This document shows positions 490 to 58,735 of a DNA stretch of 64,000 bases, in pieces. The position numbers and the translations under genes were made by a program. The notes beneath the pieces were generated by a model. It was given only the letters and a program-made list of their open reading frames with translations. It ran no database searches and had not been told where the DNA came from. This DNA is from a virus: positions 1 through 64,000 of IMG/VR virus record IMGVR_UViG_3300028840_002150; one strand, written 5' to 3'. The number at the start of each line of letters is the position of its first letter. The stretch's first letter is position 1.

Positions 490-2148
490 GTGGCAGTCAC
501 CTATGAGGGCATGATCTACTATGCCGACGCGGACCCGTTGCAGTTTCGCTACGGGAACCTGGTCATCGGTCCGGGAATTCAACCGGGCGGAGCAACGTTG
601 ACCTACGGTCCCGATGTCAATTACCCAAGCGGCATGGGCGACCTTACGGTCACCTACGGCGGAACGCAAATCACGCTGCCGGATTGCAGGCTCAAAACGT
701 TCTTCGGCAAGCTCGGTGAAGATGGCACGGTAAGCTACATGCTCCGCATCGAGGACCGCCGCTGGCGCTGGCAGTACGGCTACATCGAGGGCACGTACAA
801 CATCCGCGAGGGCAAGGGCAACGTCCGTTTGGTCCGCAAAAAAAACGCCCGTGAATTAGCGGAAATCCTGCTGGACGCCATGAGCGAAACGGGATACGAC
901 ATCGACGCGTTGCCCGATGACGAGTACCCGCTTGCCCAATGGTCCAATAGCCCGGCGTCGTGTTTGCAGCGGTTGGTCGAGGCGTACAGTTGCCGAGTGG
1001 TGTTGGATCCGCTATCGGACAAGGTGATTCTCGTAAAAACCGGCGAAGGCAGCTTGCTGCCATCGGTTGCGGAACTCATCAGCGATTCGATCGACGCGGA
1101 TCCTATGGTGGCCAGCGACCGCATTCAATGGATTGCAGGCCGTTCGCTTTGGAATTTAGACCTTGAGCTGGAAGCGGTCGGGCTGGAAGACGACGGCACG
1201 ATCAAGCCGATCGACGACTTGTCGTATAAGCCGGCGGGCGGGTGGCTGGACACCAACACCCCGCCCGCTTTCGATGAGGTGGACGAAGAGTTTCGCGAAC
1301 TCGCGCAGCAGTCGGTCTACAAAATGTATCGCGTCGCAGTACCCGTGTATTTTGACAGCCTCGGGTTGGACCCAATAGAAGACTTGCGGGACGTGCTGCC
1401 GCTGGAAAGCTTGCAAGTCGTCACAGAAGAATCAGAGGACGACATAGAGCGAAGAGTGCCCGCCTGGGTTTATGGCGATTGGTGGGACCGGGCTCCGTCA
1501 CTGGATGAACCTTTGGAAACCATCGAAACCGCGCACGGAAAAAAGCCTAAGTATGAACGTGGGTTTTCGCTGGATGTTCGCCGCGGCATGGTCACATTTT
1601 CCGAACACGTTTTCCGCATCATCCAGGGCATTGACCCCAGCTCTTCCACAATTCATCCCGGCATCATGTTCCTCCGCACAGCGGTCGGCTATCGGCACGA
1701 AGAGGACGGGGCATGGTCCCGGTTTGTCAAAGAACGCCCCACCGGGTTGCAAGGCGATGCGGAGCCGATCATCCTGCGCCGCGACGACGAAGCGTTGCAC
1801 GTTTGGAAAGAATACAACGGAGGCAACGCCAACGAGCGGTCCAACGCGATCGAAATGGACGCCATTGGGGATTTTTACATCGACCAAGAGTTGCGCAAGC
1901 TGACGCAAAACTCGCCCGCAAGCCGCTTGTACGCGGGATTTATTCCGATGTCGCCGGACGGCGCAATCCAGCAGGTCACCTGGGAAATCACGCCCGAAGG
2001 AAAGTGCTACACCCGCGCCAGTCGCAACACGGAGCACCACCCGCCGGAATTGACCTACCGCGAAAAGCAGGAAAAGCAGCGGTTGAAGGAAATGCTCGAA
2101 CGGGAACAAATGGAGCAGCCCAACGCGGACACGGAGGCGCAGGTATAG
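490..2148 (+). CDS. Tail hub/baseplate-like protein
   Basis: 552 aa, GTG start directly after the preceding tail gene. The first ~90 residues are beta-rich. They are followed by IEDRRWRWQYGYIEGTYNIR, then KNARELAEILLDAMSE and YDIDALP, an arrangement I associate with hub or tail-tip proteins of phages of GC-rich hosts. The C-terminal ~30 residues are Glu/Lys/Gln-rich and probably helical. No enzymatic motif is seen. It probably forms part of the tail-tip or hub complex upstream of the adhesin-like genes. The call rests on neighbourhood and a remembered family pattern. Confidence 0.5.
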   Translation: MAVTYEGMIYYADADPLQFRYGNLVIGPGIQPGGATLTYGPDVNYPSGMGDLTVTYGGTQITLPDCRLKTFFGKLGEDGTVSYMLRIEDRRWRWQYGYIEGTYNIREGKGNVRLVRKKNARELAEILLDAMSETGYDIDALPDDEYPLAQWSNSPASCLQRLVEAYSCRVVLDPLSDKVILVKTGEGSLLPSVAELISDSIDADPMVASDRIQWIAGRSLWNLDLELEAVGLEDDGTIKPIDDLSYKPAGGWLDTNTPPAFDEVDEEFRELAQQSVYKMYRVAVPVYFDSLGLDPIEDLRDVLPLESLQVVTEESEDDIERRVPAWVYGDWWDRAPSLDEPLETIETAHGKKPKYERGFSLDVRRGMVTFSEHVFRIIQGIDPSSSTIHPGIMFLRTAVGYRHEEDGAWSRFVKERPTGLQGDAEPIILRRDDEALHVWKEYNGGNANERSNAIEMDAIGDFYIDQELRKLTQNSPASRLYAGFIPMSPDGAIQQVTWEITPEGKCYTRASRNTEHHPPELTYREKQEKQRLKEMLEREQMEQPNADTEAQV

Positions 2149-2149
2149 T

Positions 2150-3112
2150 ATGGCCTACCAGGAACGCTATCAGGCCGACCGCTGGCCATCCTGGATCAAC
2201 GACAGCAGCGAGACCGCACCGGCGTTCGGGTGCTTCAGTATCGAGCCGCTGTCCGGGGATACGGCCTATGAGTGGACGGGCCGTTCTTTGCTGCTAAAAG
2301 GCAACAAGCCGTCCACCAGCCACGAAGCGCTACAGTTTCTTCCGTGGTTGGCCATCAACGGACCGCTGCCGGTCAAAGCCGGTTACAAGCGAACATGCAC
2401 CCAGGAATACCCGGCACGCGTGCTGGCGCTGATCGACGACGGTATTACCGCCGGGGACCTGTGCGGGCCAAAAGCCGGGCAATGGTACGCCAGCCCAACC
2501 GGCTGCGCGTGGATCTGCCAGGGAGTGGACCCGTCTACTCCGATTGACAGCGCGACCGGCTACCAGGTGCTTTTCGTGAGCCCGGCGGTCGGCCTGACGA
2601 TCTTCGCGCGGACAGCCGAGCTAGACCAATCGGAAAGCTACCCGGCGACATCGGAAACGCTGCTCCCTATCGCGTACATGGACCGCGACGACAACGCCGC
2701 TACCTGGACGCAGCGCAACGCCTACAGCCAGGGAATCTATGCCGGCAGCCCCATGGGATGGTTGCCGCCGGACTGTGACATCGAAGTGGTACCGGATAAG
2801 GGCGGGTTGCGAATAGTTCGCGGACCGACGCAGATGCACGGCGTGGCCCCAAGCCAAATCGGGGCCGCCTCTTGGGACGCGTGCGATTCGCTCACGATGG
2901 GCAGTGGGACGGTGAACGTCTGGCGCAAAGACGGAACGGGCAAGTACGTACCGCAAACTTACCGCGACGGGTCCAACGTCCAAATGATGTTTTACAATTC
3001 GTCGCCGGAAGGTGCGGTCGAAGCGGATACTCTACTCAAAGCCGCGCTTAATCCGGACTTGGATTGGGTTATTGACTTCGAACCGTGCGACGGGGCGTGC
3101 GAGGCATACTAG
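2150..3112 (+). CDS. Virion protein of unknown function
   Basis: 320 aa, starting one base after the preceding stop and therefore cotranscribed and probably coupled. It contains scattered Cys and Trp (GCFSIEPLSG, WICQGVD, PCDGACEAY at the C-terminus) and no transmembrane segment or catalytic motif that I recognise. Its position between the hub-like protein and the 899-aa Cys-rich protein makes a distal tail or baseplate role likely. I do not recognise the family. Confidence 0.5.
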   Translation: MAYQERYQADRWPSWINDSSETAPAFGCFSIEPLSGDTAYEWTGRSLLLKGNKPSTSHEALQFLPWLAINGPLPVKAGYKRTCTQEYPARVLALIDDGITAGDLCGPKAGQWYASPTGCAWICQGVDPSTPIDSATGYQVLFVSPAVGLTIFARTAELDQSESYPATSETLLPIAYMDRDDNAATWTQRNAYSQGIYAGSPMGWLPPDCDIEVVPDKGGLRIVRGPTQMHGVAPSQIGAASWDACDSLTMGSGTVNVWRKDGTGKYVPQTYRDGSNVQMMFYNSSPEGAVEADTLLKAALNPDLDWVIDFEPCDGACEAY

Positions 3113-3124
3113 GGGGCGGAATTC

Positions 3125-5824
3125 GTGGCGTGCAAAAAAGGACAACCCGGCAACCCCTGTTGCGGTACCTGTATTTTGCTGAGCAAAACGTTTGCCGCGG
3201 CCGGGGACGTGGACTCGTTCACTATCTCCGACGCGTCGCACGTTTATTACAACAACGGCAAGCTCGAAATGGACGCGGCCGATCAATCGGCGGTGACCAA
3301 GCTGAACCACGACCAGACTCCGTATCCACCCAGCGCCAAGGTGACCGTCAGCGGAGACGACGGAAGTGTGGCGAGGCTGTGGATCAGCTACGATCCAACC
3401 GAACAATACGGCCTAGCCGCGGAATTGACATTTGAAGCAAACTGCGCCGAACTGCGGATGTACCAACTGGACCCCGGCGGTGAAACGTTGATTGCGGGCC
3501 CGTTCGGTGTGCCCGGAGCGGGCGCGGGTGAATCCGTTCTGCTGCACGCGTGCTACCATCCGGAAGAAGCGGATTTCGTCGTCTACATCAATCGCGCAGC
3601 GGCTGGAGTCGGCTACACGCGATATGTAGAAGTGTCCGGCCATGTGGACCAAACCAAAGCCGCCATGGCCACCGGCAGCGGGCACACGGGCACAGCGACG
3701 TTCGATGACTTCATTTGGGAACGTTTGTATTACGACACGGAATCCGGCGCCTACGGGTACGAAGAAACGGAGCGAACGTGGTGCGAGTCGTGCGCCAGCT
3801 CGCTGTGCAAGTTCTTTCGCTTGTCCTCAGCGGTTTCGTGCGATTGGGAAGGCAACGAGGAAGACTGGTCATGGGATGACGAAAACGGTTGGATGGAAAC
3901 CGAGGCGGCGGATTCGGTAATTTGGGCGCGCACGACGGTCCCCGAAACGGCCGCTTGGTTCGAGGATATGCCGGGCTGGGACAACGACCGCTACTTCCAA
4001 ATTTACGGCGTGTTCCGCGCCAATAGCGGGCAGCGCACGTTTTCCGTGTACTTCAACGCAGACGAGACGCATACCAACTACAACACGCTGCAAATCACCA
4101 TTGGCTACGGCGAAAACGAAGAGTGCGGCAAGCTGCAACTGCTGGACCAAGATGGGTCGGCGGTGTCGCAAGAGCACATCGTCTACGGGTTGAAGTCGGG
4201 TACGTGGGTGGAGTTCGCCATCGCCTACGATGAAGGCTATATCTGGGCGTTGGTCGGAAACGCGGGAACGGGCTCAACGCCTGCGCCAGCGTTTGTCGCC
4301 GGAGGACCGAGACATCGCGTTAGCAACGATCCGGACAACCCGGTCACGTACAACGGTGGCCATGTCGGCATTGGCGTGGACGATGCATCGGGCTACTACT
4401 ATCAGTACGGAATCGAAGAAGCGGGGCTAGTCGAAGTCTCGTCGTTCGATATGTATCAATCGGAGGCGTGTGCGGAGTTTTCAGCCCAATGCGATCAGGT
4501 TAGAGATCCATCCGACGATGACGAAGATGCGCTAGACGGATGGGGTTCGGTGGACACGGACTTGCCGTGCAACTGGACGACAGACGACGGCACCGAGCCG
4601 GAAATCGTCGCGGATGACGGAGCCAGCGGTGTTCTCGATACAGATCAAGTATGGTGCGAAGCTACGGACCCCTGTGTGATTCGCAATCTTGCCCCAGTGC
4701 CAACAGACACCGAGGACGATTACGTTTTAACGGGGTCTATCGAGTGGTATGACACGGACACTTACGAATTTACGGATCTAGTCGATGCGGTAGGGTTTGT
4801 GTTTGGTAGCGACGGGACAGACTATTACGAGCTGCGTGTCACAAACAACCGCTTGACTAATTTGGATCCGGGCGGGCCGCGTACATACGACTTGGAGTTA
4901 ATTCAGGTCGAAGGCGGAGTAGAAACCGTCTTAGAAACGGCAGCACAGTTTCAAGATTTTGGTGTGCCGTCTGCAAGCGTTACGGCGTGGGTGGATTCGT
5001 CAATGCGACTTTGCTGGAACAATGGAACCGTTACGGCAAACATCGGAGCGATGCAAAAACAGACCGCAGGCGACACACTCAGTCGCGGCATTGTGTCTTA
5101 TGGTGGTTTAACAGCCTACGGCAATTATGTAGGATGGGCCGTGCGCACGGTAACGGAGCGGGTTCGACTTGGCCCGTTGGGCGTTTACGGAGGAACCTAC
5201 GACGGATACGACGAAGACAATCCGTGTGCGTTTTGCATGAGTGAATGCGACGATTGCGAGAACAGCCAGTCCCCATCTATTTTGCTGTTGAATTGCGGAA
5301 CCGGCTGGAAGTCGAAACAAACGTACCCGCCGACTGAAGATTGCCCGCTGTGTGCTTCGTTTTTGGACGAAACGGAAATATACCTGCCGTGGTATGATGG
5401 GCCGAACATCTACAACATGCCCGCTGGTTATCGGTTCGGTCCCGCTAGTTGCCGGTGGCAAAAAATTGAAACAAACCCGTTTAGTCGAACCGATTGCACT
5501 GTATGCAACGCGGTTTTAGGTCTGAGCGTGTGTGGCCCCGATGCGCAAGTGTTCTTCCGTAAAAAAGGCGACTTTCCGGCAACATGGCCGCTGGATTCGG
5601 TGATCGGGACAAAGTGGGCGGTTATTCTCATGCTGACGACAGCTAGGAATTCTTTGACTTCGCCTGATCCAGCAAACTATTTTGCTGCGGTGCTCGATGC
5701 AGAATCGACGGATGCCATTGACTGCTTTGCAGAACTGGCCAACATTGAATTAACTTTTCAGCAAAACGGGTCAAGTACGTGTTTAGGTGAAGACGTAACC
5801 GGAATAGCGCTGTCAATTCCATGA
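3125..5824 (+). CDS. Large Cys-rich virion protein, putative tail fibre/adhesin
   Basis: 899 aa, GTG start. The N-terminus is Cys-dense (MACKKGQPGNPCCGTC). Long beta-rich stretches follow, with recurrent patterns such as GPFGVPG/LGPLGVYGG, TFDDFIWE and repeated CxxC/CxxxC groups (CESCASSLCKF, CAFCMSECDDC, CPLCASF). Spacing of the beta segments suggests several concanavalin/LamG-like jelly-roll domains, but I cannot place a known domain with certainty. The stop overlaps the start of the glycan-modifying fusion protein (ATGA, 5821-5824), so the two are translationally coupled. It is a candidate receptor-binding protein and a candidate substrate of the downstream enzymes; both are inference. Confidence 0.6.
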   Translation: MACKKGQPGNPCCGTCILLSKTFAAAGDVDSFTISDASHVYYNNGKLEMDAADQSAVTKLNHDQTPYPPSAKVTVSGDDGSVARLWISYDPTEQYGLAAELTFEANCAELRMYQLDPGGETLIAGPFGVPGAGAGESVLLHACYHPEEADFVVYINRAAAGVGYTRYVEVSGHVDQTKAAMATGSGHTGTATFDDFIWERLYYDTESGAYGYEETERTWCESCASSLCKFFRLSSAVSCDWEGNEEDWSWDDENGWMETEAADSVIWARTTVPETAAWFEDMPGWDNDRYFQIYGVFRANSGQRTFSVYFNADETHTNYNTLQITIGYGENEECGKLQLLDQDGSAVSQEHIVYGLKSGTWVEFAIAYDEGYIWALVGNAGTGSTPAPAFVAGGPRHRVSNDPDNPVTYNGGHVGIGVDDASGYYYQYGIEEAGLVEVSSFDMYQSEACAEFSAQCDQVRDPSDDDEDALDGWGSVDTDLPCNWTTDDGTEPEIVADDGASGVLDTDQVWCEATDPCVIRNLAPVPTDTEDDYVLTGSIEWYDTDTYEFTDLVDAVGFVFGSDGTDYYELRVTNNRLTNLDPGGPRTYDLELIQVEGGVETVLETAAQFQDFGVPSASVTAWVDSSMRLCWNNGTVTANIGAMQKQTAGDTLSRGIVSYGGLTAYGNYVGWAVRTVTERVRLGPLGVYGGTYDGYDEDNPCAFCMSECDDCENSQSPSILLLNCGTGWKSKQTYPPTEDCPLCASFLDETEIYLPWYDGPNIYNMPAGYRFGPASCRWQKIETNPFSRTDCTVCNAVLGLSVCGPDAQVFFRKKGDFPATWPLDSVIGTKWAVILMLTTARNSLTSPDPANYFAAVLDAESTDAIDCFAELANIELTFQQNGSSTCLGEDVTGIALSIP

Positions 5825-8800
5825 AATGCGAATTCGCTCGTTTGGATACACCTGACGAAAATAACAAAAGCATTTGGAAATGCTCGCGATGCCGCTTCGT
5901 GACGCCGGTGCGCCATGCCAAGGCCCCGATCAAGACATGCAAAAGAAAGTCGCGACGCGCGCCCGACCGCCCAACGCCGCATCCGCTAAATGCGGTTCCG
6001 TGCGCGTATCGCGGCTCGATTATAGGCAGAGCGGACTGCGGTTGCTCCGGACGGTATACGGTTTTTCAATGCGGAAACGAAAACGTCGATAAAGCGTGGT
6101 GTATGCCGCACGCGGCGGACAGGCCGATCACGAAAATCGTGACGCCGACGGAAACCGTCAATGTTCGGGCGTCGAATCGTCCCGCAATTTGTGCCATGTG
6201 CTTGCACCGGCCAGAAAGGATACCCATGGATTTATCCAAAGTCACCCTGGCATGTATCGACTGCGTGGATCCGCGACTGGGGGCGGCGGCGCTTATCAAG
6301 TCGGTTGAGCGTCTGCCGTTCGCGCACGTCATGCTGTTCAGCCACGCCTGCCCGCAGAACCTGCCCGAGGCTTTCCGCTTCGTCCCCATCGACCGCATGC
6401 GAGACGTGGACAGCTACAACCGCTTCGTGCTCCGCCAATTGCACAAGCACGTCCAGACGGATTACGTCTTGACGATCCAGACCGACGGGTACGTAATTCA
6501 CCCGGAGCTGTGGGACCAGGATTGGCTGGGGTTCGACTACATCGGTTCGCCTTGGAAACCCGGCGCTCGCTACGCGCAGAAATCCCGCAACGGCAACAGC
6601 GGTATCTGCCTGCGGTCCAAGCGAATACTGGAACGAACCGCGCAGCTTGCGACCGACGAAGCACTTCAAAAGCATCGGGACCAGTGGCGGCGAATTCTGG
6701 ACGACGTATTCACCTGCTACGACTTGCACGACCAGCTAGTAGCGGAAGGGTTCCGCTTCGCCCCGGCATCAGTGGCCGGACGGTTCGGGTTCGAGCGGTC
6801 TACTCCCGAGGCTCATGATGCGGACATGGCGTTCGGGTTTCACGGCCGTCGCACGGTAAAAACCAAAGCGTACTGCAACGCAATCCATCCGACTCGCAAC
6901 CCGTCTGTGCAACCTAATTCCGCCTCGCCGTACCGCAACCCGAACGTCAAGTACAAGCTGCCGGAGCGCGGGCTGATTTCCCCGGCAAATCAGAAAATCA
7001 TCCAGTTGGACGTGACCAACGCCTGCCCCAAGCGGTGCTCCAACTGTACCCGCTTCGTGATGCACAACCGCAAGCCCTACGTGATGGACCGCCCGACGTT
7101 TGAAAAAGCGCTAGAGTCGATGGAGGGCTTCGGCGGAATGCTTGGCGTGATGGGCGGCGAGCCGACAATCCACCCGGACTTCGAGTGGATCACCCGGCAC
7201 TTCCGCGCCAACTGGGACGCGGGGCGGTTGTATCCGCACGGCCGCGACCCTATCGCGGATTTCGGCCAGCACCGCACGCAACACCTTGGCAGCCTGCATC
7301 ACCGCCGCGGACTCTGGACATCGCTCGGTAAGCGGTATTATGACCACTATGAACTGATCCAGGAAACCTACGGCTACCAGTGTATTAATGACCATTCCCA
7401 TCCGGGGCTACATCAGGCGTTGCTGGTTTCCTGGAAGGACCTCGGGTTGACCCGCGAGCAATTCGAGGAGAAGCGGGACCGCTGCTGGGTGCAGCGGCTT
7501 TGGTCCGCTTCGATCACCCCGCACGGCGCGTACTTCTGCGAAGTGGCCGGCGCGATTGACAACCTGTTCTACCAGGGCAAGCACGCGTGGCCGGTCGAGA
7601 AGAATTGGTGGAAACGGGAGCAAGCGGACTTTGGCGAACAGCTTAAACTCTGCGACCATTGTTCGGCCTGCCTCGACGTGCCCCGCCGCCCGGCAACCGA
7701 CGAAACGGAGGACGTGAGCCCGTCCAACCATCAGCGGTTGGTGCAACTACAAAGCCCCGCCATTCGCAAGCAGAAGGTAGCCGTATTCGCCCCGGAAGTC
7801 TACGATCCGGCCAAGCACAAGTGCGACGCCAACCCGGAATGGTACATGGAGCAGCCATCGGGCCGGATCGAAAACGAAAAACGCATCGAGCCGACGAACC
7901 GCTCCATCTATCCGCGCCAACTGGATGGCCTAACTGTCTGTGTCGGCTACGCCGAAGCGTTGGCGAAAACCCTGCCCCACAACCGGCCGCTATGCTCCGA
8001 GTACGTGGTGGTGACGACCAGCCGGGACGCGGAAACTCAACAGGTCGCCCGCGACAACGGAGCCACGCTGGTTGTATCGGACCGCTGCTACGATGGCGGG
8101 GCTGGATTCAATAAGGGCCGACTGTTGAACGACGGCTTGGCGAAGCTAGACGCCAAGGACTGGCTGATCCTGCACGACGCGGACGTACTGCTACCGCCGA
8201 GCTTGTGGGGCTGGATGAGCGGCCATGTGCTCAACCCCGGCTGCCTGTACTGGACGCACCGATCGCACGCGGAAACGGAGGAACACGTCCGGGCGATTCG
8301 CGCCGACTGGTCCTACGTGCAAAAACTCCGCCATCACTACGAGGGCGGCGACAAGGCCCCCTGGGGATTCTTCCATTTGGTCAACGTCCGCGCCCAAGCC
8401 TTGCGGAAGCAACCCTACATGCACGAGGGCTTCCCTGCGGCATGTTCCGTCGATGTCAACTTCCTAATGCGGTGGCCGGAAGCCAAACAAATCTGCATTC
8501 ACCGGGCCGACAAGTCGATGGACGCGGTGCATGTCTACCACGGCGAACCCGCCAAAAACTGGTGCGGAGTGGACCCCGAGCTACGCAAGCGGGTCTGGAA
8601 AGTGCTGTCCGTCACATTCGGCAACGACCCCTGGTTGCGGCGGCCCATCGAGCTGCCCTGCCATGTCAAAATGATGAACGTCCGCACAGGCGAAGAAATT
8701 ACCCGCGCCGTTCGCACCGAGGCCGATAAGCCGGTCATACGGCGGCGAAGCGGCATCACGGAGTTCGGTTGGCCCGGTTACGGGTTCTGGGCTCAAGACG

Positions 8801-8886
8801 GCCGCCAGGTAGCCCTATGGAACCACCGCCCCTGCGAGCGCACCCAATTCGATTTGTATTCCATTCCCGAACTGCCAAAGGATTAG
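5821..8886 (+). CDS. Zinc-ribbon / DUF5672 / radical SAM / glycosyltransferase fusion
   Basis: 1021 aa. Residues 1-~130 are Cys-rich (CSRC, CAYRG, CGCSG, CAMC), like zinc-binding N-termini seen on planctomycete glycosyltransferases. Residues ~136-330 match DUF5672 (LACIDCVDPR, YNRFVLRQL, TIQTDGYVIHPELW, FDYIGSPW), a GT-A-like fold. Residues ~395-620 are a radical SAM domain with CPKRCSNC (Cys402, 406, 409 as CxxxCxxC) and MGGEPTIHPDF. Residues ~700-900 resemble a GT-A galactosyltransferase-type domain (FNKGRLLNDGL, ILHDADVLLPPSLW, DVNFLMRWPEA). It would both transfer sugar and carry out radical chemistry on a sugar or peptide. An internal ATG at 6226 with AAAGGA upstream could give a product lacking the zinc region. 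It is coupled to the upstream adhesin-like gene, and the methyltransferase and sulfotransferase follow. Domain calls are firm; substrates are unknown. Confidence 0.85.
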   Translation: MKCEFARLDTPDENNKSIWKCSRCRFVTPVRHAKAPIKTCKRKSRRAPDRPTPHPLNAVPCAYRGSIIGRADCGCSGRYTVFQCGNENVDKAWCMPHAADRPITKIVTPTETVNVRASNRPAICAMCLHRPERIPMDLSKVTLACIDCVDPRLGAAALIKSVERLPFAHVMLFSHACPQNLPEAFRFVPIDRMRDVDSYNRFVLRQLHKHVQTDYVLTIQTDGYVIHPELWDQDWLGFDYIGSPWKPGARYAQKSRNGNSGICLRSKRILERTAQLATDEALQKHRDQWRRILDDVFTCYDLHDQLVAEGFRFAPASVAGRFGFERSTPEAHDADMAFGFHGRRTVKTKAYCNAIHPTRNPSVQPNSASPYRNPNVKYKLPERGLISPANQKIIQLDVTNACPKRCSNCTRFVMHNRKPYVMDRPTFEKALESMEGFGGMLGVMGGEPTIHPDFEWITRHFRANWDAGRLYPHGRDPIADFGQHRTQHLGSLHHRRGLWTSLGKRYYDHYELIQETYGYQCINDHSHPGLHQALLVSWKDLGLTREQFEEKRDRCWVQRLWSASITPHGAYFCEVAGAIDNLFYQGKHAWPVEKNWWKREQADFGEQLKLCDHCSACLDVPRRPATDETEDVSPSNHQRLVQLQSPAIRKQKVAVFAPEVYDPAKHKCDANPEWYMEQPSGRIENEKRIEPTNRSIYPRQLDGLTVCVGYAEALAKTLPHNRPLCSEYVVVTTSRDAETQQVARDNGATLVVSDRCYDGGAGFNKGRLLNDGLAKLDAKDWLILHDADVLLPPSLWGWMSGHVLNPGCLYWTHRSHAETEEHVRAIRADWSYVQKLRHHYEGGDKAPWGFFHLVNVRAQALRKQPYMHEGFPAACSVDVNFLMRWPEAKQICIHRADKSMDAVHVYHGEPAKNWCGVDPELRKRVWKVLSVTFGNDPWLRRPIELPCHVKMMNVRTGEEITRAVRTEADKPVIRRRSGITEFGWPGYGFWAQDGRQVALWNHRPCERTQFDLYSIPELPKD

Positions 8887-8892
8887 ACGACC

Positions 8893-9456
8893 ATGGTCAA
8901 CCCGATTCCTCCGCCGCCCGTCAGCGTTCAGCAAGCCATCGGTTTCGCCTATCCGCGATTCAGCGGACCGGGATTGATGTTCGACGACGAATTCGAGCAG
9001 CTTCGACGTCTCATTCCGCGCCACGGTACCTACCTGGAATTCGGTTGCTGGACCGGGACAACCGTCATGCGTCTGATGGAAGCGCGAGACGACATTGAGG
9101 CTACCTCGGTGGACATCTTTTATGACTGGCGGCAGGCCGTTTCGTATCTGGTGAACCGCTCACACCACCTTAAGCACCGGCTATGGTGGGGCGAGACCCG
9201 AACGTATCACGCGCAATGTGCGCACCACATCTACGACGTGGTGATGGTGGATGCAGACCACCGTGAAGAAGCCGCCTACCGAGACCTAGGCTACGCGTTC
9301 GATCTGGTTAAGCCGGGCGGAATTGTGCTGATCCACGATTACGGCAGCGACTACCACCGCGGCGTAACCAACGCGGCAAACAAGTACGCGGAAGACAACG
9401 GGCTGCAAGTCAAGCGGTTGGTTCGCACCCTCGCGCAGGTCGGAGTTTCGTTATGA
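8893..9456 (+). CDS. Class I SAM-dependent methyltransferase
   Basis: 187 aa. Motif I is YLEFGCWTGTT (about residues 47-57). It is followed by an acidic strand end ATSVDIFYDW, the core DVVMVDADH and the late motif LVKPGGIVLIHDYGSDY, typical of the Methyltransf_24 type often found in glycan and natural-product clusters. It starts 6 bases after the glycosyltransferase fusion and overlaps the sulfotransferase by four bases (ATGA). The likely acceptor is a sugar or a glycosylated protein, by neighbourhood. It lacks the DPPY-type motif of DNA methyltransferases, so it is not a DNA modifier. Confidence 0.8.
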   Translation: MVNPIPPPPVSVQQAIGFAYPRFSGPGLMFDDEFEQLRRLIPRHGTYLEFGCWTGTTVMRLMEARDDIEATSVDIFYDWRQAVSYLVNRSHHLKHRLWWGETRTYHAQCAHHIYDVVMVDADHREEAAYRDLGYAFDLVKPGGIVLIHDYGSDYHRGVTNAANKYAEDNGLQVKRLVRTLAQVGVSL

Positions 9457-10118
9457 AGTTGATTACCGTTCTCGGATTCCCGCGAACCGGAACCACCTGG
9501 GTATTGCGAACGCTGGCCACGTCGCCGGACGTGGCCGGGCCGGTAGCCGAGTTGGGCTGGTCCAAACTCTGGGACCTGTACCGCGATGTCCGCTTCGTTC
9601 AGGTTGGGCAGCAGTTCAGCCGCTACAGCCTGAAATCGGCGGACTTGGAGCGAGATGCGTTCTTGTGGGGCGGATTTTACCTTGGCGAATGGATTGCCAT
9701 GAACGGCGTGGCCGGGGCTTTCGACGCTATGGCCCGTCCGTACATCCGCAGGAATCACAGGGCGTTTGCCGAAAAAACGCCGATCTTAGGGCGATACCCG
9801 GCGGACTGGCCCACGGGCTATCTGGCCAAAAGCCGGGTGTTCACCGACGCGGCGGTCATTGTCTGTCAGCGGGACTTTGCCGAAACCCGAGCATCCGCGC
9901 TGAACCACTACGGCCCGCGAATCGAGCAGCAATTTCCCCAAGACCGGTTCGAAGAATACTACGACCGGTTCTACGAAGACGCGGCCCGGCGTGACAACGT
10001 GCTGTGGTTGCAGCACGCTGAAACCGCCGACAAGCCGGAGGAAACCGCCCGAGCAATTTGGAAATTTTGCGGCGTGCAAGCGGGCACGCCCGTGCCCTGG
10101 ACGCAAAAAACTGGCTGA
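9453..10118 (+). CDS. PAPS-type sulfotransferase
   Basis: 221 aa. The N-terminal strand-loop LGFPRTGTTWVLRTL (PRTGTTW at residues 10-16) is the 5'-phosphosulfate-binding loop. CQRDFAETRASALNHY (from about residue 138) resembles the 3'-phosphate-binding segment with its Arg and Ser. The C-terminus has the ETARAIWKFCGV helix seen in this family. The expected reaction moves sulfate from PAPS to a hydroxyl or amine of a glycan or protein. It is the last gene of the coupled module, sharing ATGA with the methyltransferase. The length is at the short end for the family. A convergent minus-strand gene ends 14 bases downstream. Confidence 0.8.
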   Translation: MKLITVLGFPRTGTTWVLRTLATSPDVAGPVAELGWSKLWDLYRDVRFVQVGQQFSRYSLKSADLERDAFLWGGFYLGEWIAMNGVAGAFDAMARPYIRRNHRAFAEKTPILGRYPADWPTGYLAKSRVFTDAAVIVCQRDFAETRASALNHYGPRIEQQFPQDRFEEYYDRFYEDAARRDNVLWLQHAETADKPEETARAIWKFCGVQAGTPVPWTQKTG

Positions 10119-18913: not shown

Positions 18914-20080
18914 TTACCCCCAGGTGAGCATTGCCTTGGCCGCAGCTTCCATGTCTCGCTCCGCGTAGATTTCCGTGGTCCGCAAATCCGAATGGCCGAG
19001 AATGATCCGGGACATTTCGGCGCCGTACTGGCGGCGGATTTCGGTAGCCGCGGTGTGGCGTAACTGATTTGGCGTCCAGGGTGGTATGCCAGCCCGCTGG
19101 CAGGCGAACCGCACCGCATCTGAGTAGCCCGAGTTTTTGTAGGGCCGGTTGGCCAGCTTGGAATGCCGGTCCCGTATCCGCTTCGGCTTGCCGCCGGATT
19201 TTTGTCGTTGGCGCCAGCCCTTTCCCTCGCAGGGACGAAACAGATACCGCTCGGGTTCAGCCGGTTGCATCCAGGCGGTGAGTAGGTCCTGGGCGCGGGG
19301 CCCGCACAGGATAAGCCGGTGCTTGCCGTGGTGCTCGGTCTTGTGCGAAGCGGGACGATACACCCAGACTTGGCCGCGGAGTTGAGCCGGAACGGCAGCA
19401 TCTTCGGCCCGAACATCGCAGGTCCGCACGATCCGGGCTTCACCCGGCCGGCAGCCGGTGTATAGCTGAAACTGGATCATAGCCCAGACCGGCGGGGTGA
19501 CGTATTCGCGGATAGCCTCGACGTGCTCCAGCGGCGCGGGCGGAACATCTCGCGGTTCCGGGGCGTCGGTTTCTTCCCGCCGCAATCCCCGGACCGCCTG
19601 AAGGCCGATCAGCACATCGGGCGGCAGGTACTCCCGCTCCACCCCCCAGCGCCAGACATTTCGGATCCGGCTGACGTGGCCGTTGACCCGGCGCCGGGTG
19701 TAGCCGTGCTCAACCAATTTCTGGCGGCAGGCAATCAGCGCTTGCGGCCCAAATGAGGCGGCCGGAATTCCAGAGTACATCTCAACCACTGGGCGCAGGG
19801 CGTACCGATAGGAGCGAATTTCGCTGGTTGGTGTTCCGGCCTTTTGGTACCGTTTTTCGGCCCAAGAGTAAAATAGGGAGACCAGCTCTGCAACCGTCAG
19901 GACCGCATCGGGTTCCAGGTCCGGCTCGTTGCCGGCCAGGTGTTCCGCGATGACCCGGTGGTATTTGGCGTGGCTTTCCGGGGTACCCCATTTCCCGAGG
20001 TAGATGGCCCGGCCGCGGAGCCGGATTCTGGCCTGTCCGCTGGAGTGGGGCTTCTGCGGGTATTTCGGAGTTCCGGCCAT
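18914..20080 (-). CDS. int: Tyrosine recombinase/integrase
   Basis: 388 aa. The start at 20080 was chosen for its AGGAGG ribosome site; a start at 20113 would add 11 residues. The N-terminus (YPQKPHSSGQARIRLRGRA, YLGKWGTPES) is the arm/core-binding region typical of planctomycete integrases. The catalytic domain shows YTGCRPGEARIV (Arg), a Lys in HKTEHHGKHRL, LRHTAATEIRR (His-x-x-Arg) and ILGHSDLRTTEIYAERD (His and Tyr). It catalyses site-specific integration and excision at the att site just downstream. The gene runs opposite to its neighbours and has its own promoter. Confidence 0.95.
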   Translation of the reverse strand: MAGTPKYPQKPHSSGQARIRLRGRAIYLGKWGTPESHAKYHRVIAEHLAGNEPDLEPDAVLTVAELVSLFYSWAEKRYQKAGTPTSEIRSYRYALRPVVEMYSGIPAASFGPQALIACRQKLVEHGYTRRRVNGHVSRIRNVWRWGVEREYLPPDVLIGLQAVRGLRREETDAPEPRDVPPAPLEHVEAIREYVTPPVWAMIQFQLYTGCRPGEARIVRTCDVRAEDAAVPAQLRGQVWVYRPASHKTEHHGKHRLILCGPRAQDLLTAWMQPAEPERYLFRPCEGKGWRQRQKSGGKPKRIRDRHSKLANRPYKNSGYSDAVRFACQRAGIPPWTPNQLRHTAATEIRRQYGAEMSRIILGHSDLRTTEIYAERDMEAAAKAMLTWG

Positions 20081-25938: not shown

Positions 25939-27060
25939 ATGGACATTAAGAAAACGTGCGCGGATCTACTGCCGGCCAACCCCGAGGCGGCGCTGGCAAT
26001 GGCACTGATGCAGGTGGAGCGATTGGAAGCTAAAGCGGACCGGCCCGAGGGGGTGCAGTACGATTCGGGCCGGTTCCGGATTCACGACCTGGACGGGCTA
26101 CGGAAGGTGGCTGATTTCGTGGCCGCCAGCGGCGCGGTCCCGGCCCAATTCGACAAGCAGCCGGACAAGTGCATGGTAGCCGTCCACTTGTCCCAACTGC
26201 TGGACGTGGACGTATTTGCGATGTGCCGGTCGCTGTACTTCTACAGCGGCCGAATCGGGCTGGAGGGGCAGATGTTTATTGCGTTGCTCAACCGCTCGGA
26301 GCACGTCAAGGGGCGGGTGACGTTCGAGACCACCGGCGAGGGTGACGAGTTGCGCGTTGTCGCCAAGGCAACGGACTCGGAAGGTAACGAGTGCCGGGGC
26401 GAATGCTCCAAGCGGCTCGCCGTCAAAAACGGCTGGGCGGAATCGGCGGACGGGATGCCGAGCCAATGGGAAACAATGACCGAACAGCGGTGCAAGTACC
26501 GGGCAGCGGCTTTCCTTGCACGGGCACATTTTCCGGACGTGGTGATGGGGTTATGCACGGCGGATGAGCTGGACGACATTCGCCGAACGGAGCAATCGCG
26601 GGGCGGGCAACGGCGGCCCAAAGTCAACGGATCGGCGACCGTCAAGCCCCGCGACAATTCCCCACCGAACGATACGGAGCCGGTCTCGGCAGATTGGTTG
26701 GACCGGCTCGGCGAATCCACGGTAGTTGTGCCGGACATCCCGGTACAGGACGGATTGCCGGAACCGCCCGCGGAAGGATCGGCAAAGCCAAAGGAAAACC
26801 CCAACGGGCAGAAACCGGAAGCCGAACCGCAACCAGAACCGCAAGGGGTAAGCACCGCGCCGAAGCCGCGGCAAACGGAACACTCCGAGGCCGACAAGGC
26901 TATCCGCCAAATCGGCCGCATGACAAGCGAGCGAATGGTGTCGGGGATGCTACAGCGGGCGGAGGTGAACGACGCGATTTCGGACGACGAATTGCCTCGC
27001 ATTCGCGAAGCCGCCGAAAGCAAGTTGGCGGAACTGCGGGCCAAGCAGGAGGCCGCGTAA
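25939..27060 (+). CDS. RecT-like single-strand annealing protein
   Basis: 373 aa, ATG 25939 with GGAGGGCAATCAG. The core SLYFYSGRIGLEGQMFIALL, then GWAESADGMPSQWETMTEQR, then KYRAAAFLARAHFPDVVMGL with CTADELDD, follows the phage RecT/Bet pattern. The C-terminal ~150 residues are Pro/Glu/Lys-rich and then helical. It anneals complementary strands made by the upstream exonuclease. Element copy 5 lets it be expressed separately from the exonuclease. Confidence 0.75.
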   Translation: MDIKKTCADLLPANPEAALAMALMQVERLEAKADRPEGVQYDSGRFRIHDLDGLRKVADFVAASGAVPAQFDKQPDKCMVAVHLSQLLDVDVFAMCRSLYFYSGRIGLEGQMFIALLNRSEHVKGRVTFETTGEGDELRVVAKATDSEGNECRGECSKRLAVKNGWAESADGMPSQWETMTEQRCKYRAAAFLARAHFPDVVMGLCTADELDDIRRTEQSRGGQRRPKVNGSATVKPRDNSPPNDTEPVSADWLDRLGESTVVVPDIPVQDGLPEPPAEGSAKPKENPNGQKPEAEPQPEPQGVSTAPKPRQTEHSEADKAIRQIGRMTSERMVSGMLQRAEVNDAISDDELPRIREAAESKLAELRAKQEAA

Positions 27061-27422
27061 TGCCGCGCAACATGTCCTTTAGCATCACTACCGAGCAGAT
27101 CCGCAACCGCACCAAGACGGTGACAAGGCGGAAAGGGTGGAAGTTTCTGAAGCCGGGCGACGTATTGAATGCTTGCGTGAAGTGCATGGGATTGAAGCCG
27201 GGCGAAAAGATCGAGCGGCTTTGTCAGATACGGGTCATGGACGTGCGCCGCGAGCGGCTGTCATTGATGGGCCACCGCATCTACGGCAAAAACGAGGCGG
27301 CAAGGGAGGGCTTTCCCGGAATGGCTGGCGTGGCATTTGTTGCCATGTTTTGTGAGCACATGGGCGGAAGCCGAGACCAGTTTGTGACGCGGATTGAGTT
27401 CGAATACCTGGAGGATACCTGA
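27060..27422 (+). CDS. ASCH/PUA-like protein
   Basis: 120 aa, start overlapping the RecT-like stop. FSITTEQIRNRTKTVTRRKG, W-K-F-LKPGDVL, KCMGLKPGEK and REGFPGM resemble phage ASCH-type proteins, a small RNA- or nucleotide-binding barrel. Substrate unknown. Confidence 0.65.
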   Translation: MPRNMSFSITTEQIRNRTKTVTRRKGWKFLKPGDVLNACVKCMGLKPGEKIERLCQIRVMDVRRERLSLMGHRIYGKNEAAREGFPGMAGVAFVAMFCEHMGGSRDQFVTRIEFEYLEDT

Positions 27423-27718
27423 TGTTTTCATACATTGTGGCGGCGCTTTTGGTGCTGCTGGCTTGCGCGATCACGGCGGCGTTTTGCCTGCATCGTGACA
27501 CGGTGGACCTGCGCGGTTTGTTGGCGGAAACACACAAGCAGTTTGTGCGCGCGACCGAAGAACGAGACGCGCACTTCAGCGAAGTAGAGCTTCTGAGCGA
27601 GCGAAACCAGCGGCAAGCCGAAACAATCGCGGATATGAAGATCCGCCTCAACAAAGCCAGGGCTATCCTGTATCCGCTGGGCCATTGGGACGCACATGCG
27701 ACCGTCACCGACGAGTGA
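27422..27718 (+). CDS. Membrane-anchored coiled-coil protein
   Basis: 98 aa. N-terminal transmembrane helix (FSYIVAALLVLLACAITAAF), then a heptad-rich helix (LLSERNQRQAETIADMKIRL). The topology resembles small spanin-like or Rz-like proteins, but there is no partner gene. Function unknown. Confidence 0.5.
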   Translation: MFSYIVAALLVLLACAITAAFCLHRDTVDLRGLLAETHKQFVRATEERDAHFSEVELLSERNQRQAETIADMKIRLNKARAILYPLGHWDAHATVTDE

Positions 27719-27820
27719 CCGTGGATTACCTTTGTAGTCGGGATGTCACGAAGCGAAATACCGCGGAGGCTGGCAGCGTAGCCGGCCCGGTCGCACCTTT
27801 TGTTTTTTGGGGGACGGAAA

Positions 27821-29407
27821 ATGAGCGAGCACGAATACAGTAGCGTCATCACAATAAAGGACGGCGGACCGATCACGTTGTTCCGTGTTCCGGTTTTGGA
27901 TGACGGCGGCGTGGTTATCCTCGAGGGCGGCAACGGGACCGGCAAATCGACCACTTTGAACGCCGCGGCCATGCGGCTCGGCAAATCCGGCACTCTGCCG
28001 GTACGAGATGGCGCCATGCGGGCCGAAGTGGACTGGGCTGGCGGGGGCATCCGGTACGCCAAGCGGATCAGCCGCTACGGCGCGGCCCCGGAAGAAACCG
28101 GCATTGTTCATCTCGAGGACCGCTACGACCTGGGGTCGCTGGTCGATCCGGGGTTTGACGATGAGGAGGCGGCGGACCGGGCGAGAATCAAGGCTTTGAT
28201 TCAATTGTCCGGGGTACAGATTCCGTTCGAGCAATTCGCCGGATTGTTGCCGCCATCGGACAACGGCCACGAGCCGGTGAGCATCGAATCGGCTCGCGAA
28301 TTGGCCGACCCGGTACAGCAAGCCGGCAAGGTCAAGCGGGAGTTGCAAGCAGAAATCCGGCGGCTGACCAAGTTGGCCGACAAGTCAAGCGATAGCGCGG
28401 CGGGTTGCGAATCCGCCGCCGAAGGTGTTGACGTGTCGGCTTTGCACGAACGGGCGGAAATCCAGCGGATTCACGCGGAAGCCGTGAGCAACCTATCCCG
28501 GCTCGAGGAACAGGACCGCAACGCCAAGGCGGCACGCGAAGCCCGCGAGAAGGCCAAGGCCGAACTCCGCGAGAAAGGCGGGCAATACGACGGGCCTTCT
28601 GCCGAAGAGGCCGCGGCCAAGCTGCAGGCGGAACAGGACAACCTGGCCGCCAAAGAGGCCGCGGTAGCCGAATGCCACGAACGCGTGGAACGGTTGCGGG
28701 CGGAACTGAAAGCCGCCGAAGCCGAAGAGCAGCAAGCCGTCAGTAGGCGGACCAACCAAGCCAACGCCGTGGAAAACGCGGAGCAATCACTGAAGCTGGC
28801 GCAGGACCACGAGCGGCTTATCACCGAGCTGAGCGGCCAAGCGGAAACCGAACTGCCGGCCCCGGTACCACCGGAAGAAATGGAAGCGGCACGGCGGGCC
28901 AAGGCAGAAGCGGACGACGCCGTGGAAACGGGCGTCAAGGTCCGCGAGGCGTTACGAAAACTGGAAGAAGCCGACAAGCACAAGCAGGAAGCCGAGAAGC
29001 ACCGCCGCTGGGCCAAGCGGCTACAAGAGGCGTGCGACGGGGTGGACGACATCCTCAGCAAGGCGGTCCGGTTTGACAACCTGCGGGTGGAAGCGGGGCG
29101 TCTGATCTACCAGCACGAGGACGGGCGGACCGAGCCGTTTGCGCGGTTGTCGCCGGGGCAACGGGCCCGCGTCGGCGCGGAGATCGGCGCCAAGCGGGTC
29201 TCCGAACAAACCGGCGACGGTACGCGCCTGATGATTATTCGGCAGGAAGACTGGGCCGCGCTCGACGGCGCCGCACGCAACATGGTCAACGACATCGCCG
29301 TCATGTACGGCATTACGGTGGTGACCGCGCAGGTGTCGGAACGGGGCAGCAGCCCGTTGCGGGTTCTGCTGTACGAAACCGGGGAAGAGCTGGTGGTATC
29401 GGCGTGA
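27821..29407 (+). CDS. SMC/RecF-like coiled-coil ATPase
   Basis: 528 aa, ATG 27821 behind GGGGGACGGAAA. Walker A is EGGNGTGKSTT (about residues 37-45). A long coiled coil runs from ~180 to ~410 (repeated EAREKAKAEL, AECHERVERLRAELKAAEAE). The C-terminal lobe has FARLSPGQRARVGAEIGAKR (signature) and a degenerate Walker B near LMIIRQEDWAALDG. Such phage ATPases act with nucleases in recombination or replication. No separate Mre11-like partner is adjacent, although a metallophosphoesterase is encoded at 14765. Confidence 0.8.
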   Translation: MSEHEYSSVITIKDGGPITLFRVPVLDDGGVVILEGGNGTGKSTTLNAAAMRLGKSGTLPVRDGAMRAEVDWAGGGIRYAKRISRYGAAPEETGIVHLEDRYDLGSLVDPGFDDEEAADRARIKALIQLSGVQIPFEQFAGLLPPSDNGHEPVSIESARELADPVQQAGKVKRELQAEIRRLTKLADKSSDSAAGCESAAEGVDVSALHERAEIQRIHAEAVSNLSRLEEQDRNAKAAREAREKAKAELREKGGQYDGPSAEEAAAKLQAEQDNLAAKEAAVAECHERVERLRAELKAAEAEEQQAVSRRTNQANAVENAEQSLKLAQDHERLITELSGQAETELPAPVPPEEMEAARRAKAEADDAVETGVKVREALRKLEEADKHKQEAEKHRRWAKRLQEACDGVDDILSKAVRFDNLRVEAGRLIYQHEDGRTEPFARLSPGQRARVGAEIGAKRVSEQTGDGTRLMIIRQEDWAALDGAARNMVNDIAVMYGITVVTAQVSERGSSPLRVLLYETGEELVVSA

Positions 29408-29613
29408 CGCTTCGCTGGGCCTACACAATTCGCAACGACCACGTTTACGCGGCCCGTTGCGACTCCGAGTATCTACACGAACTACCCGCGGCATTACAGA
29501 CGTGGGTAGAGGACCCGCTGCTGGAATTCGACAACGACGACAAGCTCAAAATGCTCGGCGTATTCTACGAGGTGATCTGTTATGGCGGAAACATCATGTA
29601 CCGGCCATGGTGA
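29404..29613 (+). CDS. Hypothetical protein
   Basis: 69 aa, GTG start in a GTGA overlap. RWAYTIRNDHVYAARCDSEY, then an acidic helix. No family is recognised. Confidence 0.5.
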   Translation: MTLRWAYTIRNDHVYAARCDSEYLHELPAALQTWVEDPLLEFDNDDKLKMLGVFYEVICYGGNIMYRPW

Positions 29614-29770
29614 GCGGTTGCAAGTCCGGTACCCGCCGGCAACCAGCGCGGAACGGGTCCCGCTGTACTGCGCGGACTGCAAGCGGTTTTATGGCCGCGC
29701 GGATCGGCGGGACATCGAAGCGCTCAACGCCAAAGGCCGAATCGTTGCCAACGTGAAAGGAAACGTATGA
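29582..29770 (+). CDS. Hypothetical zinc-knuckle protein
   Basis: 62 aa overlapping the upstream gene by 32 bases and coupled to the sigma factor by ATGA. YCADCKRFYGR is a CxxC motif. No family is recognised. Confidence 0.45.
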   Translation: MAETSCTGHGERLQVRYPPATSAERVPLYCADCKRFYGRADRRDIEALNAKGRIVANVKGNV

Positions 29771-30501
29771 TTGACTGGGAGCTGGAAAAAATCGTCGCAG
29801 ACAATAAGCCGCTGCCACCGGATGAACAGCGTGAGCTAATCGGTAAGGCGCAAGCCGGGGACCAGGCGGCCCGCGACCGGCTTATCCTGACAAGCCTGCG
29901 GTTGGTTTTATCCCAGGTCACGAAACAAATGCACGATCCGTCGCACTGGGAGGACGCATTCCAGGAGGGCGTCACAGGGTTGGGCGAAGCCATCGACCGC
30001 TTCGATCTTTCGCGGCCTGTGTACTTCTCCACCTATGCCACGTATTGGATCCGCGCGAGGGTCCAGGAATACACGCGGTCCAATGTGTGGCGGGTGTTTC
30101 GGATTCCGGACGCCAGCCCGAAACAGGATTCTCCGCAGCGGGAGCGGTTGCTTGCCGAGCGAAAAGACGCGGCCAAGCAGTCTGTTAGCCTGTGCTCCAA
30201 TCATCGCGACGAGTTGTCATGCGACGACGAAAAAACGCCGGACGCTATCGCCGCGAGGCGGGAAGAAATCGGCAAAATGCGCCTTGCCATGCGGTGTTTG
30301 GACCGCCGCCGCCGGCATGTACTGTTGAGCCGAGTGGAAGGCGGAACGCTGCAGGAAATCGGGAATGAGCTGGGCGTATCAAAAGAGCGCGTCCGCCAGT
30401 TGGAAGAAACTGCGCTGAAACAATTGGCATCGCGGCTCGGCAGCAACCGGAATATCCGCAGCCTCGGTTTGCGAAATGTACCGGTAGCCGTCGGGGCGTG
30501 A
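29767..30501 (+). CDS. Phage-encoded RNA polymerase sigma factor
   Basis: 244 aa. Region 1.2/2.1: LPPDEQRELIGKAQAGDQAA, RDRLI. Region 2: EDAFQEGVTGLGEAIDRFDL, YFSTYATYWIRARVQEYTRS. Region 4: CLDRRRRHVLLSRVEGGTLQ, EIGNELGVSKERVRQLEETA. Region 3 is short. The length fits group-3 sigma-70 proteins (RpoH, SigB, FliA size). It would redirect host polymerase to phage promoters; the 21-copy GAATAAC element and the TAGAGATCCC promoters are the obvious candidates. Its start overlaps the upstream stop. Confidence 0.88.
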   Translation: MIDWELEKIVADNKPLPPDEQRELIGKAQAGDQAARDRLILTSLRLVLSQVTKQMHDPSHWEDAFQEGVTGLGEAIDRFDLSRPVYFSTYATYWIRARVQEYTRSNVWRVFRIPDASPKQDSPQRERLLAERKDAAKQSVSLCSNHRDELSCDDEKTPDAIAARREEIGKMRLAMRCLDRRRRHVLLSRVEGGTLQEIGNELGVSKERVRQLEETALKQLASRLGSNRNIRSLGLRNVPVAVGA

Positions 30502-54412: not shown

Positions 54413-54922
54413 ATGGAGCGAAAGCGTGGGTACGGGCAAGCGGAACCGACGGTCGGCAAGCCGGTGGAGCTGCCGCAGCCAGCCGGGCAACGATGCGAGC
54501 CGCAGTTGGATCCGGGCGAGTGGGGCATTCTATTACAGCGGCGCAGAACGGACTCGGAGCAATGGCGGGAATGCCGGTGGTTTAGCCTGGAGGAAATCGC
54601 GGATGCCCTGTGGGAACAAGCGGCGCGGGCGTTTCAGGTGTTGGAAAGCGACTACGTACAGCCGATTAAGCCGATCCCCTGGACCGACTGCCTGTGCTCC
54701 GAAGTCGTCTGCCTGGATCCGGACGCAGAGTATCCGCCGGTAGCTGACACGCTGGAACGCGCGGAGGGCGAAAGCCAGTTCGATTACGAGGACCGGCTAG
54801 TGCGGCATTTTCACGGTGAGGATGCCTGTCTTAACCGAACAGATAACGGGGCACCGTGGGCCATGCCATGCACGAAGAAGCGGGGCCATGAGGGACCGTG
54901 TAAGTTCGAGGGTTACGCATGA
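54413..54922 (+). CDS. Hypothetical protein
   Basis: 169 aa. The N-terminus RKRGYGQAEPTVGKPVELPQ is basic/Pro-rich; the middle WFSLEEIADALWEQAARAFQ is helical; the C-terminus CLNRTDNGAPWAMPCTKKRG has paired Cys. Coupled by ATGA to the methyltransferase. No family is recognised. Confidence 0.5.
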   Translation: MERKRGYGQAEPTVGKPVELPQPAGQRCEPQLDPGEWGILLQRRRTDSEQWRECRWFSLEEIADALWEQAARAFQVLESDYVQPIKPIPWTDCLCSEVVCLDPDAEYPPVADTLERAEGESQFDYEDRLVRHFHGEDACLNRTDNGAPWAMPCTKKRGHEGPCKFEGYA

Positions 54923-58558: not shown

Positions 58559-58735
58559 ATGAGCACCGGCACCCGCGCCGATCCGATCAAACGCCAGCGG
58601 GCCGCCCGCCTATTACGCGAGGGCCGCCCCCACCGCGAAATCGCGCGAGTCACCGGCCTGGCCCGAGAAACCGTCCGCAAACTCGCCTGTGAACAGGCCG
58701 CCCCTTCCCGCCAGAATCAGGCCCGCAAATCATGA
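58559..58735 (+). CDS. Small HTH protein
   Basis: 58 aa. RQRAARLLREGRPHREIARV then TGLARETVRKL is a resolvase/HTH_23-type helix-turn-helix with basic tail. ATG behind CCGGGAGGACCGT. Overlaps the portal start (ATGA). Possible small terminase-like or regulatory DNA-binding protein. Confidence 0.6.
   Translation: MSTGTRADPIKRQRAARLLREGRPHREIARVTGLARETVRKLACEQAAPSRQNQARKS

Follow-up and report, generated by a model that had tools for sequence, protein, structure and literature searches.

A run of four genes on one strand of an uncultured phage genome (IMG/VR record IMGVR_UViG_3300028840_002150) raises the question of what its enzymes make and on which molecule they act. The window analyzed here comprises the first 64 kb (64,000 nucleotides) of this 102,420-bp virus record. 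An earlier interpretation by a model that saw only the letters and their translations (hereafter, the sequence-only reading) had described a Cys-rich virion gene followed by a DUF5672/radical-SAM/glycosyltransferase fusion, an S-adenosylmethionine (SAM) methyltransferase and a sulfotransferase. The four open reading frames (ORFs) are indeed present, all on the plus strand: an 899-aa protein with 30 Cys (3125..5824); a 1021-aa fusion of a Cys-rich N-terminus, a DUF5672 domain, a radical-SAM core with twitch domain, a GT-A glycosyltransferase (GT) and a C-terminal tail (5821..8886); a 187-aa Methyltransf_24 methyltransferase (8893..9456); and a 221-aa P-loop sulfotransferase-like protein (9453..10118). 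Their junctions are likewise as claimed, with ATGA overlaps at 5821 and 9453 and a 6-base gap between fusion and methyltransferase.

We favor, at a probability of roughly 0.5, an explanation in which a temperate tailed phage expresses the run late, as a cytoplasmic module for glycan tailoring, and the acceptor is a virion protein, either the 899-aa one or one encoded nearby. That the genes modify a glycan of some kind is very likely; the acceptor is the least certain point, and a virion protein is placed there tentatively, at slightly under even odds. In this scheme, two GT-A-type units of the fusion, DUF5672 and the C-terminal GT, would transfer sugars. The radical-SAM twitch core would oxidize a sugar hydroxyl by means of a 5'-deoxyadenosyl radical and a single auxiliary [4Fe-4S] cluster, a step modeled on BtrN, which acts on an aminocyclitol, and on a fold match to SpeY. 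The Methyltransf_24 enzyme would then O-methylate and the P-loop enzyme sulfate the product, drawing on host SAM and 3'-phosphoadenosine 5'-phosphosulfate (PAPS). We infer this order of reactions, their chemistry and their cofactor use from the sequences.

The radical-SAM fusion and its partner enzymes

The radical-SAM part of the fusion (aa 385-660; 6973..7800, plus strand) belongs to a widespread, uncharacterized twitch family and is the most unusual element of the run; the sequence-only reading had named the domain but made no use of its significance. Pattern scans with single sequences (the whole fusion, the methyltransferase, a 115-aa radical-SAM segment and the 899-aa protein) returned no relatives. 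A degenerate pattern for VMGGEPT[IL]HP brought up IMG/VR proteins with 36-42% identity across the radical-SAM or radical-SAM-GT part, and alignment of the pattern hits led to 72 viral loci (IMG/VR contigs, mainly fragments) and to 114 stretches in genomes of bacteria and archaea, of which 80, representing 76 distinct loci, were kept. Pattern-based retrieval favors intact motifs, and all family counts given here are lower bounds; among INPHARED phages, no member was found at tblastn sensitivity. The radical-SAM and radical-SAM-GT homologues are 36-54% identical to the fusion, the best single match (54%) coming from a Planctomycetota metagenome-assembled genome (L132; L-numbers are locus labels in this analysis).

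Conservation was counted on the 51 domain-covering rows of a 56-row alignment. The CxxxCxxC motif of radical-SAM enzymes (C402/C406/C409) is present in 50/51 aligned sequences and the GGE motif (G445-G446-E447) in 50/50, while C555, C573, C611 and C614 are conserved at 98-100% (50-51/51 sequences); no Cys beyond these seven is conserved in these rows. The latter four are arranged as C555, hairpin, C573, helix, C611-x2-C614, which amounts to the one four-Cys site of a twitch domain rather than the seven Cys of a SPASM domain and suggests that the predicted twitch domain binds a single [4Fe-4S] cluster. No NCBIfam radical-SAM model attains its cutoff on the family. An AlphaFold2 model of the fusion has a predicted local distance difference test (pLDDT) score >90 across most of aa 380-910, and the best radical-SAM fold match in a Foldseek search of the PDB was the twitch dehydrogenase SpeY (7wzx; E=1.2e-5, template-modeling (TM) score 0.51, 14% identity).

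SpeY and BtrN share with the fusion a partial TIM barrel, the CxxxCxxC motif and one twitch domain. The 18-38-3 spacing of C555, C573, C611 and C614 fits their twitch layout, described in the SkfB and BtrN literature as a Cys before and a Cys after a beta-hairpin and two more after a helix (PMC6231123, PMC9012708). Unlike SpeY and BtrN, members of this family are fused to GT domains and occur in polysaccharide loci and phages, not in aminoglycoside clusters. Radical-SAM epimerases usually use an extra Cys as hydrogen donor. Because the family has no eighth conserved Cys that could play this part, and together with the SpeY-like fold, the data suggest oxidation rather than epimerization; as modeled, the family probably oxidizes sugar hydroxyls.

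On the N-terminal side of this core lies the GT-A-like DUF5672 domain (PF18922; aa 185-341; 6373..6843, plus strand), which scores 76.4 bits (E=2.6e-21) against a Pfam cutoff of 24.4 and whose tblastn relatives sit in cyanophage glycan islands, annotated as "glyco_tranf_GTA_type." On its C-terminal side, a GT-A domain (aa 690-930; 7888..8610, plus strand) carries a DAD motif at about D786. Its GT2-type Pfam match falls under the cutoff (E=0.022); the top-ranked GT-A enzymes matched by Foldseek in the PDB are the K4 chondroitin polymerase K4CP (E=1.9e-7) and GPGS, and both the AlphaFold2 fold and the DxD motif in the sequence place the domain in the GT-A class. K4CP and GPGS share this fold and motif, but the fusion GT differs from them in scoring under the Pfam cutoffs and in lying C-terminal to a radical-SAM enzyme. 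Homologous GT domains, fused or separate, occur in L016, L019/L037, L025/L031, L041 and L091. The radical-SAM and GT identities are thus confirmed, despite Pfam scores under the cutoffs, by homologues, invariant motifs and predicted fold, and the three-part fusion stands as first described. Ahead of DUF5672, a Cys pattern marks a zinc-ribbon-like segment (aa 73-127; 6037..6201, plus strand), found elsewhere, in a set of 2,398 ORFs from related loci, only in the L029 methyltransferase adjoining a radical-SAM-GT gene.

Both partner enzymes pass their Pfam cutoffs, in agreement with the sequence-only reading. The 187-aa protein matches Methyltransf_24 (PF13578) over the entire profile (1-105/105; E=2e-13, 51.5 bits against a cutoff of 26.3), including the glycine-rich SAM motif and VDADH...HDY, and this class I SAM-dependent enzyme is a probable sugar O-methyltransferase. 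The 221-aa protein matches Sulfotransfer_3 (PF13469; E=1.3e-10, 42.3 bits against a cutoff of 27) and PF00685 (E=2.9e-5, 24.0 bits against a cutoff of 22). It has the two P-loop sulfotransferase elements, an N-terminal PRTGTTW (5'-phosphosulfate binding, 5'-PSB) and CQRDFAETRAS (3'-phosphate binding, 3'-PB), and is predicted to be a PAPS-dependent sulfotransferase-like enzyme. The proposed sulfated, methylated glycan pathway is therefore represented by its enzyme families, whereas the pathway itself is deduced from those families.

Recurrence in phages and polysaccharide context in bacteria

Is this set of enzymes peculiar to one phage, or does it recur? In 52 non-redundant viral loci, Methyltransf_24 was the commonest family next to the radical-SAM gene (7/78 right-hand and 12/87 left-hand proteins), GT2 and epimerases came next, and terminase, portal, capsid and collagen-like genes were also near. 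Neighbors lay on the same strand as the radical-SAM gene in 83/101 cases, with gaps of ≤30 bases in 69/83. When whole viral records were considered, 26/50 contained Methyltransf_24, and in 23 of these 26 it lay ≤1.5 kb from the radical-SAM gene, compared with 5.1 expected under uniform placement that ignores general gene clustering (0/20,000 random placements were as high). Because this null disregards clustering, a control set matters: Methyltransf_24 was found in 0/30 viral records chosen by other genes, a set unmatched for habitat or taxonomy.

Radical SAM and GT are joined in one polypeptide in the window phage, L016/L029, L026, L027, L030 and L031. The L031 protein (L031:9149-12145), a 998-aa chain with the order GT-radicalSAM-GT-Methyltransf_24, closes a tail module. 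In L037, the radical-SAM enzyme, a Methyltransf_24-type methyltransferase and a GT are consecutive separate genes, and L041 and L091 encode radical SAM and GT in neighboring separate genes; L091 had been taken as a candidate fusion, which was rejected because its frames show two adjacent genes. As far as family assignments go, L091, an unrelated phage, independently holds all four enzyme classes, in the order sulfotransferase-like (weak, E=6e-4), Methyltransf_24, GT-like, Methyltransf_24, radical SAM and GT, in a record that also has large terminase-like and tape-measure-like genes. L095 contains a tail-spike-like protein, a GT2-like protein, Sulfotransfer_4 (E=4e-27), whose gene shares 4 bases with the radical-SAM gene, then radical SAM itself, Caps_synth, an epimerase and GT2. 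The library scan covered part of L091, L095 and L218, and some of their gene names were assigned by reading. The sets in L091 and L095 indicate that this type of combination recurs.

These observations bear on the possibility that the run is a chance juxtaposition of unrelated morons gathered at a tail-module boundary. Ends of phage structural modules do accumulate cargo, and sulfotransferase and DUF5672 genes are scarce in other viral records. However, the overlapping ATGA junctions, the strong linkage of Methyltransf_24 relative to the control, the same partners fused or split across phages and the independent four-enzyme set in L091 all argue for a functional association, and we consider chance very improbable.

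Among the immediate neighbors in 63 non-redundant cellular loci, 48/101 match Glycos_transf_2, and others are epimerases, nucleotidyltransferases and FkbM methyltransferases; a Planctomycetota relative has a Wzt-like ABC ATPase on one side and a GT on the other (assigned by reading sequences). Judged from this gene content, the bacterial relatives reside in polysaccharide loci. Together with the related sets in tailed phages, this context supports the earlier proposal of a coupled glycan-modification operon, although the tail genes that it was said to follow are only probable.

The cellular context also weighs on a reading in which the fusion makes a hypermodified base by radical-SAM and GT steps on phage DNA. 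Phage DNA hypermodification pathways include radical-SAM and GT enzymes, and the phage encodes two DNA methyltransferases. Yet the bacterial relatives lie among polysaccharide genes, a sulfotransferase and a Methyltransf_24 enzyme would be unexpected for DNA, and no thymidylate synthase/hydroxymethylase homologue (PF00303) occurs in the record, this being the one route checked. A DNA substrate is, in our judgment, highly unlikely.

In a phylogenetic tree, the window radical-SAM domain, the viral radical-SAM-GT proteins and most bacterial members group together with support (100/99), and the sequences nearest to the window domain by tree path are from Lentisphaerota and Planctomycetota. Viral and bacterial labels require 8 changes across the tree, which points to several transfers. 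Planctomycetota were considered as the host clade, but only 3/392 sampled genomes of the phylum carry the family, and we assign no host. A Planctomycetota genome holds the family's radical-SAM domain fused to a long TPR-like array (L219:1243-3501), adjoining a gene that resembles the catalytic region of O-GlcNAc transferase (SPINDLY type), both identified by reading.

Virion protein or host surface as possible acceptor

A virion protein is the likeliest acceptor because the run carries on directly from presumed tail genes and encodes neither a membrane flippase nor a ligase. Two genes upstream of the 899-aa gene (552 and 320 aa; 490..3112, plus strand) form a probable tail or host-recognition region by position and have no Pfam or PHROG match. 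The gene preceding position 490 (~505 aa) spans the circular junction of the record and stops at window position 485, and one part of it is similar to a stretch within an 855-aa structural protein encoded by phage L016; position and this shared domain make a tail role for the upstream genes probable. Every gap between the same-strand genes from 490 through 10118 is ≤25 bases, and any 5' limit of the operon is arbitrary in that the same-strand run already begins upstream of 490. Virion glycosylation by phage GTs has precedent in mycobacteriophages Che8 and Rita, in which phage-encoded GTs decorate virion proteins (cited in PMC11256854); twitch chemistry, sulfotransferases and radical-SAM enzymes are not mentioned there.

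The 899-aa protein is a candidate virion or host-recognition protein and a candidate glycan acceptor. It is an orphan in Pfam, PHROG, tblastn and pattern-scan searches, and its structure prediction failed (pLDDT 34). Its designation as a tail adhesin in the sequence-only reading accordingly found no backing from homology, and the labels "virion" and "tail adhesin" both derive from its position. The Cys-rich gene and its ATGA link to a radical-SAM gene might instead point to a ribosomally synthesized and posttranslationally modified peptide (RiPP)-like or S-linked system, in which the radical-SAM enzyme and a SunS-like GT would modify Cys residues of the 899-aa protein. The GT domain does match SunS, weakly by profile (E=0.46) and by fold (7msp, E=2.4e-5). 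Long Cys-rich proteins, however, are not enriched beside the viral relatives (3/65 near versus 7/165 far), the radical-SAM fold match is to a twitch dehydrogenase, and the bacterial context is polysaccharide, all of which makes this system improbable.

A more serious alternative, which we hold to be possible though not the likeliest, is that the module alters glycans on the surface of the infected or lysogenic host (lipopolysaccharide, capsule or flagellin glycan), so that the receptor changes and other phages are shut out. The polysaccharide loci of the bacterial relatives are consistent with this role, as are the DUF5672 relatives in cyanophage islands where GTs and sugar-nucleotide enzymes abound and the integrase that the phage carries, and the same role has been argued for pelagimyophage GTs beside tail fibers (PMC7029224). 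On the other hand, none of the four proteins has a transmembrane-grade hydrophobic segment (maximum KD19 1.41), no flippase, GtrA/GtrB-like or lipid-carrier gene lies within the run, and the genes occupy a presumed late structural transcript, not a lysogenic-conversion position. The run also lacks the membrane GtrA flippase and GtrB bactoprenol GT that characterize phage serotype-conversion (gtr) cassettes.

Several points weigh against a glycan-tailoring module directed at a virion protein. The proposed 899-aa acceptor is an orphan with a putative virion role. Host O-antigen is the supposed target of many phage glycan genes (PMC7029224). The fusion matches PF04055 at E=0.0019 and 18.8 bits, under the curated cutoff of 29.5, which its homologues in L026 (37.4), L133 (33.3) and L097 (29.6) pass; the likeness to SpeY is at the level of fold (14% identity, TM score 0.51). 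Related sets do co-occur in viral databases, with all four classes in L091, but DUF5672 was found in 0/50 viral records and the exact DUF5672 fusion does not recur. The sulfotransferase is seldom a companion (sub-threshold PF13469 matches in 3/50 records), and the exact enzyme combination is close to private to this phage.

Glycan islands next to tail genes in cyanophages and pelagimyophages (S-B05, RN05-S, RB11-B and the host-recognition cluster of PMC7029224) likewise group GTs, methyltransferases and DUF5672 relatives, and radical-SAM cassettes are mentioned in pelagimyophages (PMC7029224). Those islands are long and devoted to sugar nucleotides, whereas here the run is a compact four genes with a radical-SAM/GT fusion and a sulfotransferase. 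We found no description of a radical-SAM-centered phage glycan set in the open-access literature, consistent with the earlier statement that no phage system with this combination is described; phage glycan islands are known, and their radical-SAM-centered variant appears undescribed. Such islands are usually read as GT cargo. Here, the recurring core is the putative radical-SAM oxidase, which diverse uncultured phages pair with one methyltransferase family and which bacteria carry in polysaccharide loci. If this reading is right, it would mean a large uncharacterized enzyme family, sugars on virions or host surfaces with unusual oxidation, methylation and sulfation, and a possible supply of new carbohydrate-oxidizing biocatalysts. 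A broader generalization, that undescribed radical-SAM twitch oxidases, often fused or adjacent to GTs, build keto or otherwise oxidized, O-methylated and sometimes sulfated sugars on virion proteins of many uncultured phages, seems to us doubtful as it stands.

Genome setting

The terminal 144 bp of the record copy its initial 144 bp, which indicates a complete, circularly mapping genome of ~102.3 kb. An integrase (18914-20080, minus strand), TerL (50733-52832), a portal fusion protein (58732-62091) and a minor-tail-like protein (record 85960-86841; PHROG 290, E=7e-12) point to a temperate tailed phage. By these features, the uncultured phage is complete, temperate and tailed. The presumed tail genes are split, because non-structural genes at record ~92-99 kb, including a DnaB-like helicase (L009:9664-11148; record 93664-95148), separate a long putative tape-measure gene from the genes preceding the glycan operon. 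GC content and third-codon-position GC (GC3) of the enzyme genes are near phage-backbone values, and a scan for promoters and terminators gave counts at chance level.

As bait for related phages, TerL yielded a single 43% relative on a 27-kb record, in a 21-kb stretch of which only TerL and a DnaB-like helicase were recognizable; the 1119-aa portal protein drew matches mainly to its HAD-like insert. Elsewhere in the window, the two DNA methyltransferase genes lie at 48924-50279 and 54919-56781, the first with a ParB-like N-terminal half, and 25939-30501 holds a RecT-like annealing protein, an ATPase-like protein and a phage sigma factor. The portal protein itself combines in a single chain the portal part, a HAD/phosphoheptose-isomerase-like domain (aa 612-706) and a C-terminal stretch that weakly matches head morphogenesis (aa 980-1102).

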